DNA from: a virus
DNA: 47,767 nt
Virus record (IMG/VR): IMGVR_UViG_3300030061_000503
Coordinates: 1-47,767 of that record
Direction: 5' to 3' (one strand)
Part shown: positions 12,248-31,833 of the stretch, piece after piece
Numbering within the stretch: position 1 is the stretch's first letter
Layout of the letters: each line of letters begins with the position of its first letter
Position numbers and translations under genes: made by a program
The notes under the pieces: model-generated
The model's database searches: none
What the model saw: the letters and a program-made list of their open reading frames with translations, nothing else
Told to the model about the DNA's origin: nothing

Positions 12248-12709
12248 ATGAATATATTTAAACTAGACAATACTATACAAGGCTGTGCTCAAATGCACTG
12301 CGATAAACACGTATCTAAAATGATACTTGAGTCTGCTCAAATGTTATGTACAGCTATGTGGTCTAATGATGAAGAAGCACCTTACAAACCTGTACATGCT
12401 AAACACCCTTGTACCTTATGGGCTGGAGCTAGTCTTGATAACTGGCTGTGGTTAAAAGACTTAACTATATACTTAAACGAGGAGTTTTGCTGGCGATACG
12501 ATAGAACTGTCAATCATAAATCAGCAGACGTTGTACTTTCTTTACCTAACCCGAATATAAAAAGTAAAGGATTACAACAGCACCCTCAGTGTATGCCTGA
12601 TGAGTACAAAGTTGAAAATGACGCAATAAAAGCGTATCGTAATTATTATATAGGAGAAAAGCATTTCGCTAAGTGGACTAAACGAGGAGTACCAGAATGG
12701 TATATGTAA
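12248..12709 (+). CDS. Conserved phage protein, first gene of modification cluster
   Basis: 153 residues. The N-terminal CDKHVSKMILESAQMLCTA stretch (18-36), the HPCTLWAG segment and the C-terminal MPDEYK, AYRNYY, FAKW and P-x-W blocks are a conserved phage family I recognise, often found beside thymidylate synthase-like and DNA-modification genes. Some databases loosely label it a pyrimidine-dimer glycosylase, but I see no catalytic match to DenV, so function is unassigned. Start ATG 12248 has no clear ribosome site. It overlaps the next gene by 13 bases. Confidence 0.7.
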   Translation: MNIFKLDNTIQGCAQMHCDKHVSKMILESAQMLCTAMWSNDEEAPYKPVHAKHPCTLWAGASLDNWLWLKDLTIYLNEEFCWRYDRTVNHKSADVVLSLPNPNIKSKGLQQHPQCMPDEYKVENDAIKAYRNYYIGEKHFAKWTKRGVPEWYM

Positions 12710-13539
12710 ATACAAAGTGGGATAACGTAGAAAATTTTTTCGGTTATATAAACGAAAGACATTTTATATATTTAAAACGACAGGACAATGAAAAACCGCC
12801 TTGGACTGAGGACAAGATAATACAGACCTATAGTTTCTGTAATGTTTATAGGGAATTAGATAAGGTTACTATATGGATAAGGGAGAACTGGAAAGAACCA
12901 TATAAAGACCACCCCCATATACCTTTCGCTATGTCTGTGGCACGTCAGATAAACCACCCACCAACTTTAAAAGCGATAGGTTTTCCTGAGTCATGGGATC
13001 CTACACGTGTAAAAGCTATAATGCAGGATAGAATGGATAATAAAAAGAAAGTGTACACTGGTGCGTATATGTTAACTGGCACTTTAGGAGGAACTAAGGT
13101 AGAACAAACTATAGATAAAATACTCACACCTTTATTCAATAACCCACCGAAACTTTACGAAGACAGTTTAGAAAAAACTTGGAAAGAATATCTACCGTAT
13201 GCTGGATTCAGTGGTTTTATGGCTTATGAGGTTGTAACTGATTTGAGATTTACAAAGCATTTAGAAAATGCTAAAGATATCATGACATGGGCTAATGCTG
13301 GTCCAGGAGCGAAACGTGGACTCAATAGAATACATAATAGAAAATTAGAGCAAACTATAAAGAAAGACCAGTTGACCGCAGAGATGAAAGAACTGTTAGA
13401 TGTCTCTGATGATTACCTAGACTTAGCGTTACCGCGTTTAGAAATGAGAGAAATAGAGCATTGCTTGTGTGAGTTTGATAAGTATGAGAGAGTACGTTTA
13501 GGTGAAGGCAGACCGAGGTCAAAATATAAGTATGGATAA
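12697..13539 (+). CDS. 5-hmdU DNA kinase helical-domain / aGPT-PPlase-like base-modification protein
   Basis: 280 residues. The conserved run is INERHFIYLKR (18-28), PWT, SFCNVYRELDKVTIWIRENW (46-65), FAMSVARQINHP (77-88), VYTGAYM (119-125), GFMAYEVVTDLR (173-184) and TWANAGPGAKRGLNRI (197-212). This fits the helical family that Iyer, Aravind and colleagues placed in phage thymine-hypermodification operons (5-hmdU DNA kinase helical domain, related to the alpha-glutamyl/putrescinyl thymine pyrophosphorylases). The GPGAKRGLNRI stretch resembles a helix-hairpin-helix DNA contact. There is no P-loop, so it is not itself a kinase. Neighbours (TAGT-like, Nmad1-like, ThyA-like) support a role on hydroxymethyluracil in DNA. 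Exact reaction unknown. Confidence 0.7.
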   Translation: MVYVNTKWDNVENFFGYINERHFIYLKRQDNEKPPWTEDKIIQTYSFCNVYRELDKVTIWIRENWKEPYKDHPHIPFAMSVARQINHPPTLKAIGFPESWDPTRVKAIMQDRMDNKKKVYTGAYMLTGTLGGTKVEQTIDKILTPLFNNPPKLYEDSLEKTWKEYLPYAGFSGFMAYEVVTDLRFTKHLENAKDIMTWANAGPGAKRGLNRIHNRKLEQTIKKDQLTAEMKELLDVSDDYLDLALPRLEMREIEHCLCEFDKYERVRLGEGRPRSKYKYG

Positions 13540-14038
13540 TTTAGATAATTTATTTGAGGTAGTGCGTGGCGGTACAATAAAAAGGTATCACACGCTAGAA
13601 ACCATTGGTGAACAGTCCGTAGGTGCTCACTCTTGGGGTGTGGCTATAATACTACAGTATCTAGAACCTAATATAAGTAAGATAGCTATATTAAAGGCAC
13701 TTACCCATGATGTAGCTGAACTATATACAGGAGATATTCCCGCACCTGTTAAATGGGATAACCCTGATTTAATCAAATCATTAAAATCAATAGAGCTTGC
13801 TTACGAGAAGAAACTAGACATAGATTACAGCACTGTTTTAGGAAAAAAGGAAGCACTTTTATTTAAACAAGCCGACATGTTTGAACTGTTATTTTTCTGT
13901 ATGCGTCAAAGAAAAATGGGTAACACTAATATGAACATGGTATTTAGCAACGGTGTTGAATACTTAGCAAATCAAAAGTTAAATAAACGCGGTTCAAATC
14001 TACTCGGTAAACTTATAGAGGAGTATGGAGGCATATGA
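13532..14038 (+). CDS. HD-domain 5'-nucleotidase-like hydrolase (YfbR type)
   Basis: 168 residues from ATG 13532, which overlaps the previous stop; an in-frame GTG at 13502 adds ten unlikely residues. HD-superfamily metal ligands: H33 in AHSW, H59-D60 in THDVAEL, then GDIPAPVK, and a later Asp in KQADMFE. The layout resembles YfbR/HDDC2 deoxynucleoside 5'-monophosphatases. In this cluster it could remove canonical dTMP or recycle nucleotides so that a modified pyrimidine replaces thymine; that is inference from context. Confidence 0.75.
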   Translation: MDNLDNLFEVVRGGTIKRYHTLETIGEQSVGAHSWGVAIILQYLEPNISKIAILKALTHDVAELYTGDIPAPVKWDNPDLIKSLKSIELAYEKKLDIDYSTVLGKKEALLFKQADMFELLFFCMRQRKMGNTNMNMVFSNGVEYLANQKLNKRGSNLLGKLIEEYGGI

Positions 14039-14355
14039 AAAAGCAGAAAAAATTTCAAGAAATGCTAGACATAGTTGAACAAGATGTAGACGAGCTTGTA
14101 GAAGCAGAGAAAAGTTATGGCAATAGTTGGCGTAAGCGTGGCGGTATCGGTGCGTTTATGATGCTGGCTCGTAAATGGGATAGGATAGAGAATCAAGTTA
14201 GATGCCATAACTTTGATATATTCTCTGCGATAAGAAATGATACAAGACCAGAAGGTATCATGGACGACATACACGATTTAAGAAGATATTTAATATTAGT
14301 AGAGCAGTACGCAACTAGGAGCGATGATGAAGATATACATACCGACGAGGGGTAG
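14035..14355 (+). CDS. Nmad1-like (DUF1599) nucleotide-modification-associated protein
   Basis: 106 residues. SYGNSWRKRGGIGAFMML (23-40), ARKWDRIENQV and the C-terminal GIMDDIHDLRRYLILVE helix match, from memory, the DUF1599 family renamed nucleotide modification associated domain 1. It starts at ATG inside an ATGA overlap with the HD gene and its end overlaps the glycosyltransferase start, so all are co-translated. The family's chemistry is not established; a role in making or handling modified nucleotides is presumed from its repeated linkage to such genes. Confidence 0.65.
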   Translation: MKKQKKFQEMLDIVEQDVDELVEAEKSYGNSWRKRGGIGAFMMLARKWDRIENQVRCHNFDIFSAIRNDTRPEGIMDDIHDLRRYLILVEQYATRSDDEDIHTDEG

Positions 14356-15118
14356 ACCCGATAACCAAGAAACACTCAAGTGGTTTCCAGAAAGCATGAT
14401 TAAAGATGGAACAGTAGTGTTAGCCATAGATGAAGACGAGCAGGATAAATACACTAAATACCCAGATGTAGAAAAGTTGATAGTCCCTTCATTCATTAAA
14501 GGTATTAGTTATAAAAGAAAATACATAATAGAACAAAGTTACGATCCACGTGTAGTTATGCTAGACGATGATTTACGGTTTTATGTCCGTAAGAGCGCGG
14601 ACGATTGGCATTTAAGATATGCAGAGCCAGAAGAATATCCTGCTTTATTTGGGTTACTTGATGAATGGATGGATAAAGGTTACGCTCATGTAGGGATAAG
14701 TGCTAGAGAAGGTAATAATCGAGTAGAAGAGTTAGCCGTAGAGAATACTAGATATATGAGAGTATTGGGGTATAATCTAGAAGCTTTCCCTAAAGATATT
14801 GAGTGGGGTAGAACTCGGGTGATGGAAGATTTTGATATATCTTTACAACTGCTTAGGAGAGGTAAATCCTGTAAGGTAAGTTATTTCTATGCTCAGGGTC
14901 AAAAGTCTTCTAATGCTGACGGTGGCTGTAGTGAGTGGAGAACTATCGACGTACATAACGCAGGTGCTGATAGGCTACATGAACTCCACCCTAATTGTGT
15001 TAGGGTGGTAGAAAAACAAACTAAAACTGCGTGGAATGGTTTACCTCGTAGGGATGTAATAGTAGGATGGAAAAAAGCATACAAGGAAGGTGTAGAATAT
15101 GCAAACAATAACAGTTAG
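14327..15118 (+). CDS. TAGT-like (TET-associated) GT-A glycosyltransferase
   Basis: 263 residues. ATG 14327 is preferred over ATG 14324 because the AGGAG is five bases away. N-terminal KIYIPTRGRP (2-11) is the GT-A nucleotide-sugar start; MLDDDL (78-83) gives the metal-binding DxD; GISAREGNN (123-131), MEDFD (166-170), GGCSEWRT (199-206) and a C-terminal VGWKKAYKEG follow. This pattern resembles the TAGT family described beside TET/JBP enzymes in phages, which transfers sugars to hydroxymethylated pyrimidines in DNA. No TET/JBP gene is visible here, so the hydroxymethyl group would have to come from the nucleotide pool. Glycosyltransferase fold is fairly sure; DNA as acceptor is inferred. Confidence 0.7.
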   Translation: MKIYIPTRGRPDNQETLKWFPESMIKDGTVVLAIDEDEQDKYTKYPDVEKLIVPSFIKGISYKRKYIIEQSYDPRVVMLDDDLRFYVRKSADDWHLRYAEPEEYPALFGLLDEWMDKGYAHVGISAREGNNRVEELAVENTRYMRVLGYNLEAFPKDIEWGRTRVMEDFDISLQLLRRGKSCKVSYFYAQGQKSSNADGGCSEWRTIDVHNAGADRLHELHPNCVRVVEKQTKTAWNGLPRRDVIVGWKKAYKEGVEYANNNS

Positions 15119-16136
15119 AAATGTACATGAAGCACTGCCCAGAGGTCTAGATTATCTAGATCAAAGCGGAGTATTATTAGACAGTAGGAACGGTATGATG
15201 TATGAAGCACCGTGTCCCGTCACCACTGTTTATAAAAAACCTGATGAACGAGTAGTTTTCTGGGCGCATCGTAACGCTAACCCTTATTTTCATTTTATAG
15301 AAGGGTTATGGATGTTGAAAGGCGGTAAAGATTTAGAAACTGTAGAGTGGTATGCTAAAAGCATGAGAAACTACAGTGACGATGGTAATATTTTGTGGGG
15401 AGCCTATGGTTGGAGGTGGCGTAGTTTTTTCCAGCAAGACCAGTTAAAAGTAATTATTGGGATGCTTAGGAAAAACCCAGACGATAGGAGAGCGGTCTTA
15501 CAAATGTGGAGTATAAAAGATTTAGCTCGTCAAGGTAAAGATGTGCCTTGTAATACTTGTATATATTTTAAGATACGAGATGGTTTACTAAACATGACTG
15601 TATCTAACAGGTCTAATGATGTAATATGGGGTGCGTATGGTGCTAACGCAGTACACATGTCCATGCTTCAAGAATATATGGCACGTAGGATTGGTGTAGG
15701 GATAGGTGTGTATAATCAAGTGAGCGACAGCTATCACGCATATAAAGATATTTTCGATGATCTTTTACAGAAGTTTGCTGAAGATGATATACTAGACTAC
15801 TATGTTCAATCATTACCGCAAAGCGTATCAAGCATGAATCCCTACAGAACTGGGCAGGTAGAACCTTACCCCATGATATCTCAGTACTGTACAGAAACAT
15901 GGGATTATGAGTTAGGGTTATTTTTCCGCAGAAAGCCACTAGAAAAGTCAAGTCTTAAACATAAAGATAAGTTTAGAAAAGCAGATCCTTTCTGGGCAGA
16001 AGTAGCCATACCTATACAAGACTCTTGGGAATACTGGAAGGAAGGTAACATAAGTTCTGCCATAGATAAACTAGAGGATTGTAAAGCTACTGACTGGAAA
16101 AAAGCATGCGTGGAGTGGCTAGAGAGGAAAGTATGA
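15099..16136 (+). CDS. ThyA-family enzyme: thymidylate synthase or dUMP hydroxymethylase
   Basis: 345 residues. ThyA-fold motifs: FIEGLWML with E68, NILWGAYGWRWR (97-108), RRAVLQMW, catalytic C151 in VPCNTCIYF, NRSNDVIWGAYGAN (170-183) and SYHAY (211-215). Two things differ from ordinary thymidylate synthase. The PCHxxxQF box is PCNTCIYF, closer to T4 dCMP hydroxymethylase, and the usual C-terminal Met-Ala-Val lid is replaced by an 80-residue helical tail. The base-selecting Asn (N183) is kept, which favours dUMP over dCMP. With its neighbours this suggests 5-hydroxymethyl-dUMP synthesis, but plain dTMP synthesis cannot be excluded. It overlaps the glycosyltransferase gene by 20 bases. Confidence 0.88.
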   Translation: MQTITVRNVHEALPRGLDYLDQSGVLLDSRNGMMYEAPCPVTTVYKKPDERVVFWAHRNANPYFHFIEGLWMLKGGKDLETVEWYAKSMRNYSDDGNILWGAYGWRWRSFFQQDQLKVIIGMLRKNPDDRRAVLQMWSIKDLARQGKDVPCNTCIYFKIRDGLLNMTVSNRSNDVIWGAYGANAVHMSMLQEYMARRIGVGIGVYNQVSDSYHAYKDIFDDLLQKFAEDDILDYYVQSLPQSVSSMNPYRTGQVEPYPMISQYCTETWDYELGLFFRRKPLEKSSLKHKDKFRKADPFWAEVAIPIQDSWEYWKEGNISSAIDKLEDCKATDWKKACVEWLERKV

Positions 16137-23383: not shown

Positions 23384-23863
23384 ATGAAAAAACCAGTTAC
23401 AGACACAGTATTAGTTACAAAATATGATGACTCTGACTGGTACGAAGCAGAAGTAAATAGTCTGTTGAGCGTACAGTTTACTGCCTCTTTAACTAACGAT
23501 GTGGTCGGTATAAGATTTTTCTTTTACAGAGACTACAACATAACTTGGAGAGATCCAGAGGAGATAAACATGGGTGCAATGAAACAAGCAGCACTAAAAG
23601 CTACAAGTAAACCAACTAAGTTGAAAGTATCGAAGACTAACCTTAAAAAAGCAGTAGACAAATCTAAAGATAAGGTGGCTGTGAAAGGTCTTGATTTAGA
23701 TTCAATAATTATCAAGACTGCTAAACAAGCTAGGTCTAAGGAGAATCGCGAACGCCACGAGGAGTTAAGTGGTATGACAGTAAAGGAAGCTCTCGCCACT
23801 CGTAGAGTAGAGGGTAAGGATTTACGATACGACCTTGAAAAAGGTTTCATGCAGTACAAGTAG
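23384..23863 (+). CDS. Hypothetical protein with C-terminal ERHEE domain
   Basis: 159 residues: an N-terminal beta-rich part (1-60), a lysine-rich linker (70-105), and a C-terminal block, ENRERHEELSGMTVKEAL then YDLEKGFMQY (about 120-159). This block is shared with the proteins at 30761 and, on the minus strand, 31260. The N-terminal half is absent from those, so this is a domain fusion within one local family. Function unknown. Confidence 0.65.
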   Translation: MKKPVTDTVLVTKYDDSDWYEAEVNSLLSVQFTASLTNDVVGIRFFFYRDYNITWRDPEEINMGAMKQAALKATSKPTKLKVSKTNLKKAVDKSKDKVAVKGLDLDSIIIKTAKQARSKENRERHEELSGMTVKEALATRRVEGKDLRYDLEKGFMQYK

Positions 23864-30047: not shown

Positions 30048-30760
30048 TTAGTTAGTCGGTAGGGATCCTCCACATTCCCTTTTTAAACAAGTTTGGTGCA
30101 CTTGCCCGACGAAGAAGCACCCCTTTCTATATTACCTCTCACGAATTCTACTTAATAATTTTACACAAATCTTTGCGTTTAGCCAATAAGCCAATAGCCT
30201 TCTCTCTGTATCCATCGCAGCTTGTCCTTTTTTAAGGGCTATTGGCTATCGTATTGGCGACCTATTGGCTTGGAACAGGTAATACGACCATTGTCCATGG
30301 TCCATGGTAACTTGATGGTAAGAATGGCATAGGTGTGATAAAGCATGTGAAAGATCTTTAGACAGTGGTTTGTGGACTGTGGGAGATTATATATAGAAAC
30401 TAGGATCGAACGGACACTGATCTACGGACAGAAATCCTACAGAAATGTACCATGGACCACGAAACATGGACTTTTAGCCAATAGGGTAATAGGTTATGAT
30501 CAGATCTGAATGTCCTCTGTAAACTAATTGGGTAAATAATGATCAGATCGGATCTGAAGATGCCACGGTCCATGGTCCATGTGCTCGCATGCGATAGATC
30601 ACACTGTGATCGCACTGTGATCTGAACTGTTTATTCATAAATTAATTAATGATCTTGCTTTACTTCTTATATACTTTACTTTACTATATAAGGGTAGGTT
30701 ATAGTTATAAGGGTACTATAACTTCAACTAACTAACTAACCCTTTATATAGGTGATTAAG
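30048..30760. other. Repeat-rich non-coding region before the late module
   Basis: About 710 bases with no convincing gene. Contents: an inverted repeat GCCAATAGCC / GGCTATTGGC (30189-30246) with further CCAATA/TATTGG copies at 30183, 30252, 30263 and 30478; CCATGGTCCATGG (30295-30307) and related CCATGG sites at 30450 and 30570; TGATCAGATC palindromes (30497-30509, 30540-30557); TCGCATGCGA (30585-30594); GATCACACTGTGATC (30598-30612); and CACTGTGATC twice, 11 bp apart. Density of palindromes and iterons suggests an origin, packaging site or regulatory hub; which of these is not decidable here. Confidence 0.55.
30189..30246. repeat. GCCAATAGCC inverted repeat, 43-nt core spacing
   Basis: GCCAATAGCC (30189-30198) and GGCTATTGGC (30237-30246) are perfect reverse complements. 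The CCAATA and TATTGG cores are 43 bases apart, exactly as at 7496-7550. Adjacent extra cores (30183, 30252, 30263) make this the fuller copy. Confidence 0.65.
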
Positions 30761-30991
30761 ATGGCTAAAAAAGCTACTGATCAAAAAACTAAACCCGTAG
30801 CTACGGGACCGTTCGATCCCGCTGGTATATATACCGCTACTGGGAAAATAGCCCGCGCGCCTCACAACGCGGAACGCCATGAAGAGTTTAATGGCAAAAC
30901 TATTAAAGAAATCCTAAGTATTAAACCTACTAGGATGACCGTCGCAGATATTAAGTACGATCTAAAAACGGGCTTTATAACTATTGAATAA
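30761..30991 (+). CDS. Small ERHEE-domain protein, plus-strand copy
   Basis: 76 residues from ATG 30761 (AGGTG six bases upstream; GTG 30752 also in frame). AGIYTATGKIARAPHNAERHEE then YDLKTGFITIE is nearly the same as the minus-strand protein at 31260 and shares its C-terminal half with the 23384 protein. No known domain. It ends in its own terminator. The conserved His, Arg and Glu could be functional. Confidence 0.65.
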   Translation: MAKKATDQKTKPVATGPFDPAGIYTATGKIARAPHNAERHEEFNGKTIKEILSIKPTRMTVADIKYDLKTGFITIE

Positions 30992-30998
30992 ATAGTTA

Positions 30999-31024
30999 GG
31001 GGGACTACGGTCCCCCATCTTTTT
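30999..31024 (+). terminator. Terminator of the 30761 gene
   Basis: GGGGGAC (30999-31005), TACG loop, GTCCCCC (31010-31016), then ATCTTTTT. A strong 7-bp GC stem with U-run eight bases after the stop codon. Confidence 0.85.
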
Positions 31025-31221
31025 ACCTTTACTAATCGCATCTGAACTGTAAACTCTGATCCTCTGTAAACTATTAATGGGATTTTATTACCGACCATGA
31101 TCTATAGTCACAGTCAAAGTCTAAGTATAGTTCTCTGTAAACTATTTTCGGAATATTATTTCTGATCTGAACTCTGACCTCCGACCCTAAGGGTATTCAG
31201 AGTTCTGAGGTTTTTAAAAAT

Positions 31222-31250
31222 AAAAAAAGGGCTACCTTTACGGTAGCCCT
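31222..31250 (-). terminator. Minus-strand terminator of the 31260 gene
   Basis: GGGCTACC (31229-31236) and GGTAGCCC (31242-31249) pair over a 5-base loop. Read on the minus strand, the stem is followed by seven T (complement of 31222-31228). There is no T-run on the plus strand, so it serves the minus-strand gene. Confidence 0.8.
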
Positions 31251-31259
31251 AGTATTACG

Positions 31260-31508
31260 CTATTTTACTTCAAGCGTAATAAACCCCGTTTTTAGGTCAT
31301 ACTTTATATCGGCGGGGGTTAATACCGTAGGCTTAATACCTAAAATATAACTTACCGTTTTACCGCTATATAACTTATGGCGCTCAGCGTTATGGGGCGC
31401 CCTAGCTAGCTTACCCGTAGCGGTATAAATAGCGTTACCGTTTAAACCGCCTAGGTTAACCTTAGGCGCGTTAGTTTTTACTTTTTTAGTTTTAGTATTA
31501 ATAATAAT
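31260..31508 (-). CDS. Minus-strand ERHEE-domain paralogue with AUU start
   Basis: Up to 82 residues on the minus strand. From residue 26 (AIYTATGKLARAPHNAERHK, then ADIKYDLKTGFITLE) it is a close paralogue of the plus-strand protein at 30761; the two genes face each other. No ATG, GTG or TTG precedes the conserved part. Instead, AAAGGGG (31510-31516) is followed by three tandem in-frame ATT codons (31506-31508, 31503-31505, 31500-31502); the third has ideal 7-base spacing. A perfect minus-strand terminator follows the stop. It is either a gene with AUU start or a recently start-damaged copy; the intact frame and signals favour a working gene. Confidence 0.65.
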   Translation of the reverse strand: MIINTKTKKVKTNAPKVNLGGLNGNAIYTATGKLARAPHNAERHKLYSGKTVSYILGIKPTVLTPADIKYDLKTGFITLEVK

Positions 31509-31630
31509 ACCCCTTTATTTAATTACGGTTTAGTTAGTTAGTAATATTAAATTAGTACCGTTTAACTTATTTAATATACCTAGTATTTTAACCCTAAACG
31601 TATATAAAAGTAAAGTAAAAACTAAAAAAT

Positions 31631-31655
31631 AACCCTATTATTTAAAGGGTTTTTT
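31631..31655. terminator. Bidirectional hairpin terminator
   Basis: AACCCT (31631-31636) pairs with AGGGTT (31646-31651); T-run on the plus side, and TATTTTTTAG on the minus side. The stem is only 6 bp, so strength is uncertain. Confidence 0.5.
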
Positions 31656-31683
31656 AACCCCCGTACCCCCCTTACGGACACCG

Positions 31684-31703
31684 CTAAAGCCGAAAGGCTT
31701 TAG
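31684..31703 (+). repeat. GAAA-tetraloop hairpin before the late operon
   Basis: CTAAAGCC, GAAA, GGCTTTAG: 8 bp closed by a GNRA tetraloop; extendable by GACA/TGTC across a bulge. TTTT follows shortly after, so it may end early transcripts. Confidence 0.6.
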
Positions 31704-31833
31704 TGTCGGTTTTAAAGATACATTCCAGTATAGTTTTACTTTTCGACAATAGTGAACTACACTATGGGGAGAGACAGTGGTACAAAAAATATTTTGCAAA
31801 AATTTTTTAACATATGAGGTCACTACCTGAGCC

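Follow-up and report, generated by a model that had tools for sequence, protein, structure and literature searches.

The window analysed here, the whole 47,767-nt stretch of the uncultivated virus record IMGVR_UViG_3300030061_000503, contains a gene-sized island, running from promoter to terminator, in which T before C or G (TS) is almost completely avoided on both strands, and the gene in this island possesses no NTG codon at which to start. The island has defined limits and is kept up as its sequence diverges between relatives. The best explanation, to which we assign a probability of about 0.72, is that this gene has been kept, as a transcription unit, free of hypermodified thymine. The elements of the region are the following.

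31208 to 31675, no strand assigned: TS-free island, promoter to terminator (log-odds 49.9)
31394 to 31677, both strands: stretch of 284 nt without any TC, TG, CA or GA
31585 to 31614, minus strand: sigma70-like promoter TTTACT-N18-TAAAAT, a TS-free form of the -35 and -10 boxes; the motif recurs in the family
31510 to 31516, minus strand: Shine-Dalgarno-like AAAGGGG; the GA present in the usual GGAG is absent
31500 to 31508, minus strand: tandem ATT-ATT-ATT, candidate start codons; the signature is also found in L001, L298, L299 (record G070) and L300
31260 to 31502, minus strand: protein-coding part of the TS-free gene when the third ATT is taken as the start (80 codons and the stop TAG)
31222 to 31250, minus strand: intrinsic terminator, AGGGCTACC-GTAAA-GGTAGCCCT and a T run; the island stops 14 nt past it
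30752 to 30991, plus strand: ordinary TS-containing paralogue, with ATG at 30761

The sequence-only reading of this DNA had overlooked a composition anomaly, the absence of TC, TG, CA and GA from positions 31394 to 31677. Because CA is TG read on the opposite strand, and GA likewise TC, the four reduce to one rule: no T before C or G on either strand. A chance run was rejected, since about 1.4e-30 such runs are expected in the window under its first-order Markov model. A plain composition effect was likewise rejected, since the mirrored control dinucleotides AS/ST (AC, AG, CT and GT) are not avoided; these words are common, the longest control-free run in the window being 28. The island is nearly, not wholly, TS-free. 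Its coding region contains nine TS/SA dinucleotides, the minimum for the protein being six, whereas random synonymous versions (n=2000) contained 44.5 on average and at least 31. The count is still nine in L001 after 54 substitutions in 470 aligned columns; random substitution gave a mean of 42, with 0 of 10,000 replicates at nine or fewer. When four islands were pooled, only CA/TG and GA/TC, with observed/expected ratios of 0.10 and 0.09, were found to be depleted among the ten strand-symmetric dinucleotide classes. The rule is also violated by GGAG and TTGACA, the usual forms, in whose place AAAGGGG and TTTACT stand here.

The hidden minus-strand gene that the sequence-only reading had proposed, as a paralogue of the 30761 protein that standard callers miss, is confirmed as real. 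On the minus strand, 84 codons between two stops form an open frame (31260-31514); it lacks ATG, GTG and TTG, whose absence had been claimed for the part before the conserved region, and CTG as well. The relationship to the 30761 protein amounts to 65% identity over residues 12-77, and the terminator reported at the end of the gene was located at 31250-31222. An in-frame TAA is followed by AGG GGT ATT ATT ATT AAT ACT, such that AAAGGGG (31516-31510), then T, precedes three in-frame ATT codons (31508-31500) at distances of 1, 4 and 7 nt, again in agreement with the earlier description. The third ATT (31502-31500) has the best Shine-Dalgarno spacing, 7 nt, and lies close to the ATG position of relatives. 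As the anomaly contains no TG, every NTG start is excluded; ATC contains TC, and ATT and ATA obey the rule. Judging from the sequence, ATT is the most likely start, so that AUU would be used, and the three tandem codons probably make up for weak initiation. A tRNA search of the window returned none, and hence no phage-borne initiator tRNA was found there.

Two further structures were observed near the gene. Just 5′ of the Shine-Dalgarno sequence, in the window (31520-31570, minus strand) and in the leaders of relatives, lies an inverted repeat that differs in sequence and keeps its pairing by eye (ACGGT/ACCGT, AAGGT/ACCTT, TAGGGT/ACCCTA, GCCGT/ACGGC); single-sequence folding of the leaders gave no significance except in L004. 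The island is separated from the 31834 gene by a conserved region with a hairpin (31677-31760), which is near-identical in L001, though the flanking sequence beyond it differs.

The bacterial gene infC is initiated at AUU, and here likewise AUU after a Shine-Dalgarno sequence is the likely start; unlike in infC, three AUU codons stand in tandem and the loss of AUG would have a cause at the DNA level. A regulatory AUU start limited by IF3, like that of infC, and unconnected with DNA modification, which is the kind of cause the sequence-only reading had invoked, would suit the retention of ATT-ATT-ATT after a Shine-Dalgarno sequence in two lineages. However, it leaves unexplained the loss of TC, CA and GA, also 5′ of the promoter and in the terminator, and does not account for the ATG-bearing relatives being TS-free save for the ATG. 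The ATT belongs to a ban on TG, TC, CA and GA that extends over promoter, leader, coding region and terminator. Since this ban covers far more than the start codon, a plain IF3-type start was rejected, and we consider it very unlikely.

Profile searches for the small-protein family gave 24 viral loci. L001, whose protein is 88% identical over the aligned part, keeps AAAGGGG-T-ATT-ATT-ATT; L005 is cut, so that its 5′ end is unreadable; and ATG is present in all 22 other loci with a readable 5′ end (L002, L003, L004, L006, L007 and the 17 loci L012-L028). A pattern scan found the signature AAAGGGG-T(T)-ATT-ATT-ATT also in L298, L299 (G070) and L300. This group is a divergent family member, sharing 26 of 82 residues with the window protein, and was joined to the main family with an hhalign probability of 98.2%; G071, a relative of G070, has an ATG start. 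Among relatives, then, ATG is found in 22 and the ATT signature in L001 and the G070 group. The earlier proposal of an ATT start is supported, as both L001 and a divergent lineage share the triplet; its IF3-type cause is not supported. A clear ATG in relatives together with a damaged copy here had been named as the contrary outcome; ATG is indeed usual, and the copy in the window is undamaged.

This distribution bears on whether the gene is a decaying copy, its ATG lost and its translation ended. Decay would agree with the ATG in the 22 other relatives, the adjoining intact ATG paralogue, and the weak synonymous bias of the substitutions between the window and L001 (10 synonymous, 17 nonsynonymous; P=0.19 without and 0.017 with TS constraint). 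By themselves these changes do not demonstrate purifying selection, and they suggest weak selection at the protein level. Yet neither of the two diverged copies contains a stop or frameshift, few of the TS/SA dinucleotides go beyond those forced by His, Glu and Asp codons, and promoter, Shine-Dalgarno sequence and terminator are all retained. Moreover, the ATT-start pair L298 and L299 of the second lineage differs by five base changes, all synonymous and with no amino-acid change (P=0.0015 without constraint); the coding sequences of L299 and L300 are identical. The probability that the gene is simply decaying is therefore judged to be very small. Within the window, the promoter region of the 30761 paralogue (30666-30753) is TS-poor, and a third, more distant family copy occurs at 23648-23854, forming the C-terminus of a longer protein (23384-23863). 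The motif TTTACT-N16..18-TAnnnT was found in 21 of 25 family members (expected 0.3).

Four genes of the window relate to base modification.

12697 to 13539, plus strand: 5-hmdU DNA kinase (HMUDK_hel), presumed TS-directed (PF18723, E=1.9e-45)
13502 to 14038, plus strand: YfbR-like 5′-deoxynucleotidase (PF12917)
14324 to 15118, plus strand: TAGT glycosyltransferase, a possible later modification step (PF20691, E=1.3e-26)
15099 to 16136, plus strand: thymidylate synthase homologue, presumed dUMP hydroxymethylase (PF00303)

The kinase match scores 155.8 bits against a cut-off of 25, and kinase relatives occur in 108 phage records. The window kinase is 38% identical to that of M6 and 29% to that of phiW-14, and the thymidylate synthase homologue is 47.4% identical to a phage M6 protein. 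Phages M6, ViI and phiW-14 likewise combine an HMUDK_hel kinase with a thymidylate synthase homologue, and the TS rule corresponds to their reported target, TG and TC having been inferred as the modified dinucleotides in these three phages (Flodman 2019, PMC6449724). Kinase treatment was reported to block sites with TG or TC, and a kinase test on SP8 DNA agrees with TS (PMC7653180). By analogy, the window kinase may be taken to target TS. The terminase large subunit of the window is 60.8% identical, over 99% of the query, to that of the Pelagibacter phage HTVC027P. Thymidylate synthase and kinase (aG/PT-PPlase1) have been described in clades V, VIII and IX of HTVC023P-type pelagiphages (PMC9599517). 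The HTVC023P-type genome is about 58.8 kb; the window record has 47,767 bases and may be a fragment.

The kinase searches gave 35 viral loci, and a second search 80 of 390. Islands were surveyed in 29 kinase-bearing uncultivated records longer than 30 kb, including the window (1.35 Mb). At a log-odds of at least 18, TS-free islands were detected in 9 of the 29 and control islands in none (G059 and G060 share one and the same island); the corresponding numbers were 14 versus 0 at a log-odds of at least 10 and 23 versus 2 at a log-odds of at least 8. Thus, 20 of the 29 records are without a gene-sized island, and six are without any at log-odds 8. The first 50 kb of each of four kinase-less relatives (HTVC027P, HTVC023P, DSL-LC04 and 023Pt_psg01) contained no island at any threshold and one control dinucleotide run at log-odds 8; a kinase search of their full records found none in any of the four, with M6 and phiW-14 detected as positive controls. 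Unlike the window, the cultured HTVC027P and HTVC023P have neither kinase nor islands. TS-free windows of 45 nt numbered seven, all non-coding, in five kinase-bearing records when the window's island was left out, and none was found in four kinase-less records. The kinase was not found in the shorter contigs bearing L001, L015 and L017.

No island at log-odds 18 was found in seven cultured phages that have the kinase and belong to other lineages (M6, phiW-14, SH-Ab 15599, Goe26, Pam3, RHph_I72 and Sonora; 495 kb, mostly partial sequences); at log-odds 8, one of the seven had a TS-free island and one of the seven a control island. Presence of the kinase is thus not sufficient for gene-sized islands. 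M6 and phiW-14 are known to be hypermodified and differ from the window in having no such island in the 50 kb of each that was examined, which indicates that modification alone does not require islands. Most genes of the kinase-bearing phages are full of TS, and presumably these are still transcribed.

The genome-wide TS fraction is 0.41-0.50 in kinase-bearing phages and 0.50-0.52 in their kinase-less relatives, as might be expected if modified T mutated and TS decayed by mutation bias alone. Such decay could not be local and gene-shaped, however, and the non-coding DNA adjoining the island (31000-31240) is full of TS. TS decay by mutation was rejected on these grounds; it is largely refuted, with next to no probability left.

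Eleven distinct gene-sized islands were recognized (window, L001, L015, L017, G059, G063, G064, G066, G068, G070 and G071). Their genes have ATG at the start in seven cases and ATT in three, and one has no ATG, GTG or TTG near its start. All 11 carry TTTACT-N15..18-TAnnnT (expected 0.28). A script found a terminator in nine, the exceptions being G059 and G066; in G066 an inverted repeat with a 10-nt loop and a T run was seen by eye. Six islands (window, L001, L017, G063, G070 and G071) reach 4-19 nt beyond the terminator, three (L015, G066 and G068) extend further, and two (G059 and G064) stop inside the coding region. A TS-rich ordinary ATG paralogue lies near the island gene in the window, G059/G060, G064, G070 and G071. 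In G066 and G068 (101 and 110 codons) the ATG is the only TS/SA of the coding region. The encoded proteins (L290:3826-4131 and L251:17248-17580, respectively) contain no D, E, H, Q, C or W, and no kinship to the main family was detected (hhalign probability 1.2%).

Two side observations concern individual islands. The G059/G060 gene (L238:19524-19745, L281:15542-15763) has no NTG before codon 63; its candidate starts are an AAG aligned with the paralogue's ATG and an ATA after a Shine-Dalgarno-like AAGG. L015 contains a second TS-free stretch (611-798), perhaps a TS-free small RNA: it has no evident reading frame, and its minus strand shows a sequence resembling a promoter (TTTACT-N17-TATACT), a long stem and a palindrome rich in GC.

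That the islands track the transcription unit, several ending just beyond the terminator, could also reflect a ban at the RNA level, in which the transcript evades a phage or host RNase cutting UG, UC, CA and GA. This has little probability: TS-free DNA reaches 5′ of the -35 box by about 60 nt in the window and more than 100 nt in L015, the four words make one rule only across both DNA strands, and they match the kinase target. The location of the window island upstream of the terminase-portal block might instead point to a DNA-processing site, for packaging or for the origin of replication, on which the enzymes of the phage can act only if it is unmodified. Such a site would not need synonymous choice across a whole coding region; the islands bear promoters, open frames and terminators, and those of G066 and G068 encode proteins without detectable kinship to the main family. 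We regard a processing site, too, as improbable.

Under the preferred reading, a transcription unit exempt from hypermodified thymine, the phage DNA would probably be made with 5-hydroxymethyl-dU, which the kinase would phosphorylate before G or C to begin its conversion into a bulky base. Selection would strip nearly every TS from both strands, promoter through terminator, by means of synonymous codons, a GA-free Shine-Dalgarno sequence, a TTTACT -35 box and amino-acid replacement. As ATG, GTG, TTG and CTG all contain TG, the start would have become ATT as a cost of the rule, and RNA polymerase could initiate on and cross the gene while the remaining genome is hypermodified. In the work of Vanikova et al., E. 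coli RNA polymerase transcribed kinase-treated 5hmU DNA at 37% of the normal level, and transcription of the phosphorylated 5hmU template was 10% of that of the 5hmU template (Vanikova 2019, PMC6457204). We infer three things: that virion DNA carries no modification within the island, that modification impedes transcription in this case, and that translation starts at AUU.

The small-protein family occurs in 20 of 35 kinase contigs and, in a separate search, in 14 of 15 uncultivated kinase records; the phages searched there that lack the kinase, and the cultured ones that carry it, yielded no member. No relative was found among 50,697 phage records or by a peptide-pattern search of bacterial and archaeal genomes, and the protein had no match in Pfam, PDB sequences or Rfam. 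The predicted structure (pLDDT 86.5) consists of a strand, three helices and a strand. Fold searches gave nothing significant: winged-helix-like matches were weak (best Z 5.5 and 4.5), and the best viral match, a phage PhiJL001 protein, had a non-significant E=7.8e-3. One guess, in line with the logic of exemption and the weak fold hint, is that the product acts early and helps RNA polymerase to read the remaining genome. A wider, rather doubtful proposal is that of a 'boot gene', a unit exempt from hypermodification whose product would let host RNA polymerase read the hypermodified genome. It would be the exemption that replaced AUG by AUU as the start and, in the extreme cases G066 and G068, deprived the protein of Asp, Glu, His, Gln, Cys and Trp; a modification of DNA bases would thereby have reshaped both a start codon and the set of amino acids in use.

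Phage DNA is under selection against short words in restriction-site avoidance. The islands similarly reflect selection against short words, but here the words seem to be those that the phage itself modifies, and avoidance is confined to single transcription units. No earlier report of such islands was found in a literature search limited to open-licence PMC. If the reading is correct, base modification constrains phage genes even in their choice of start codon and amino acids, and TS-free islands would provide a sequence-only sign of where modification is excluded. They would also give hypermodification a testable role in phage transcription, and would reveal a class of genes that callers miss because a standard start codon is impossible in them.
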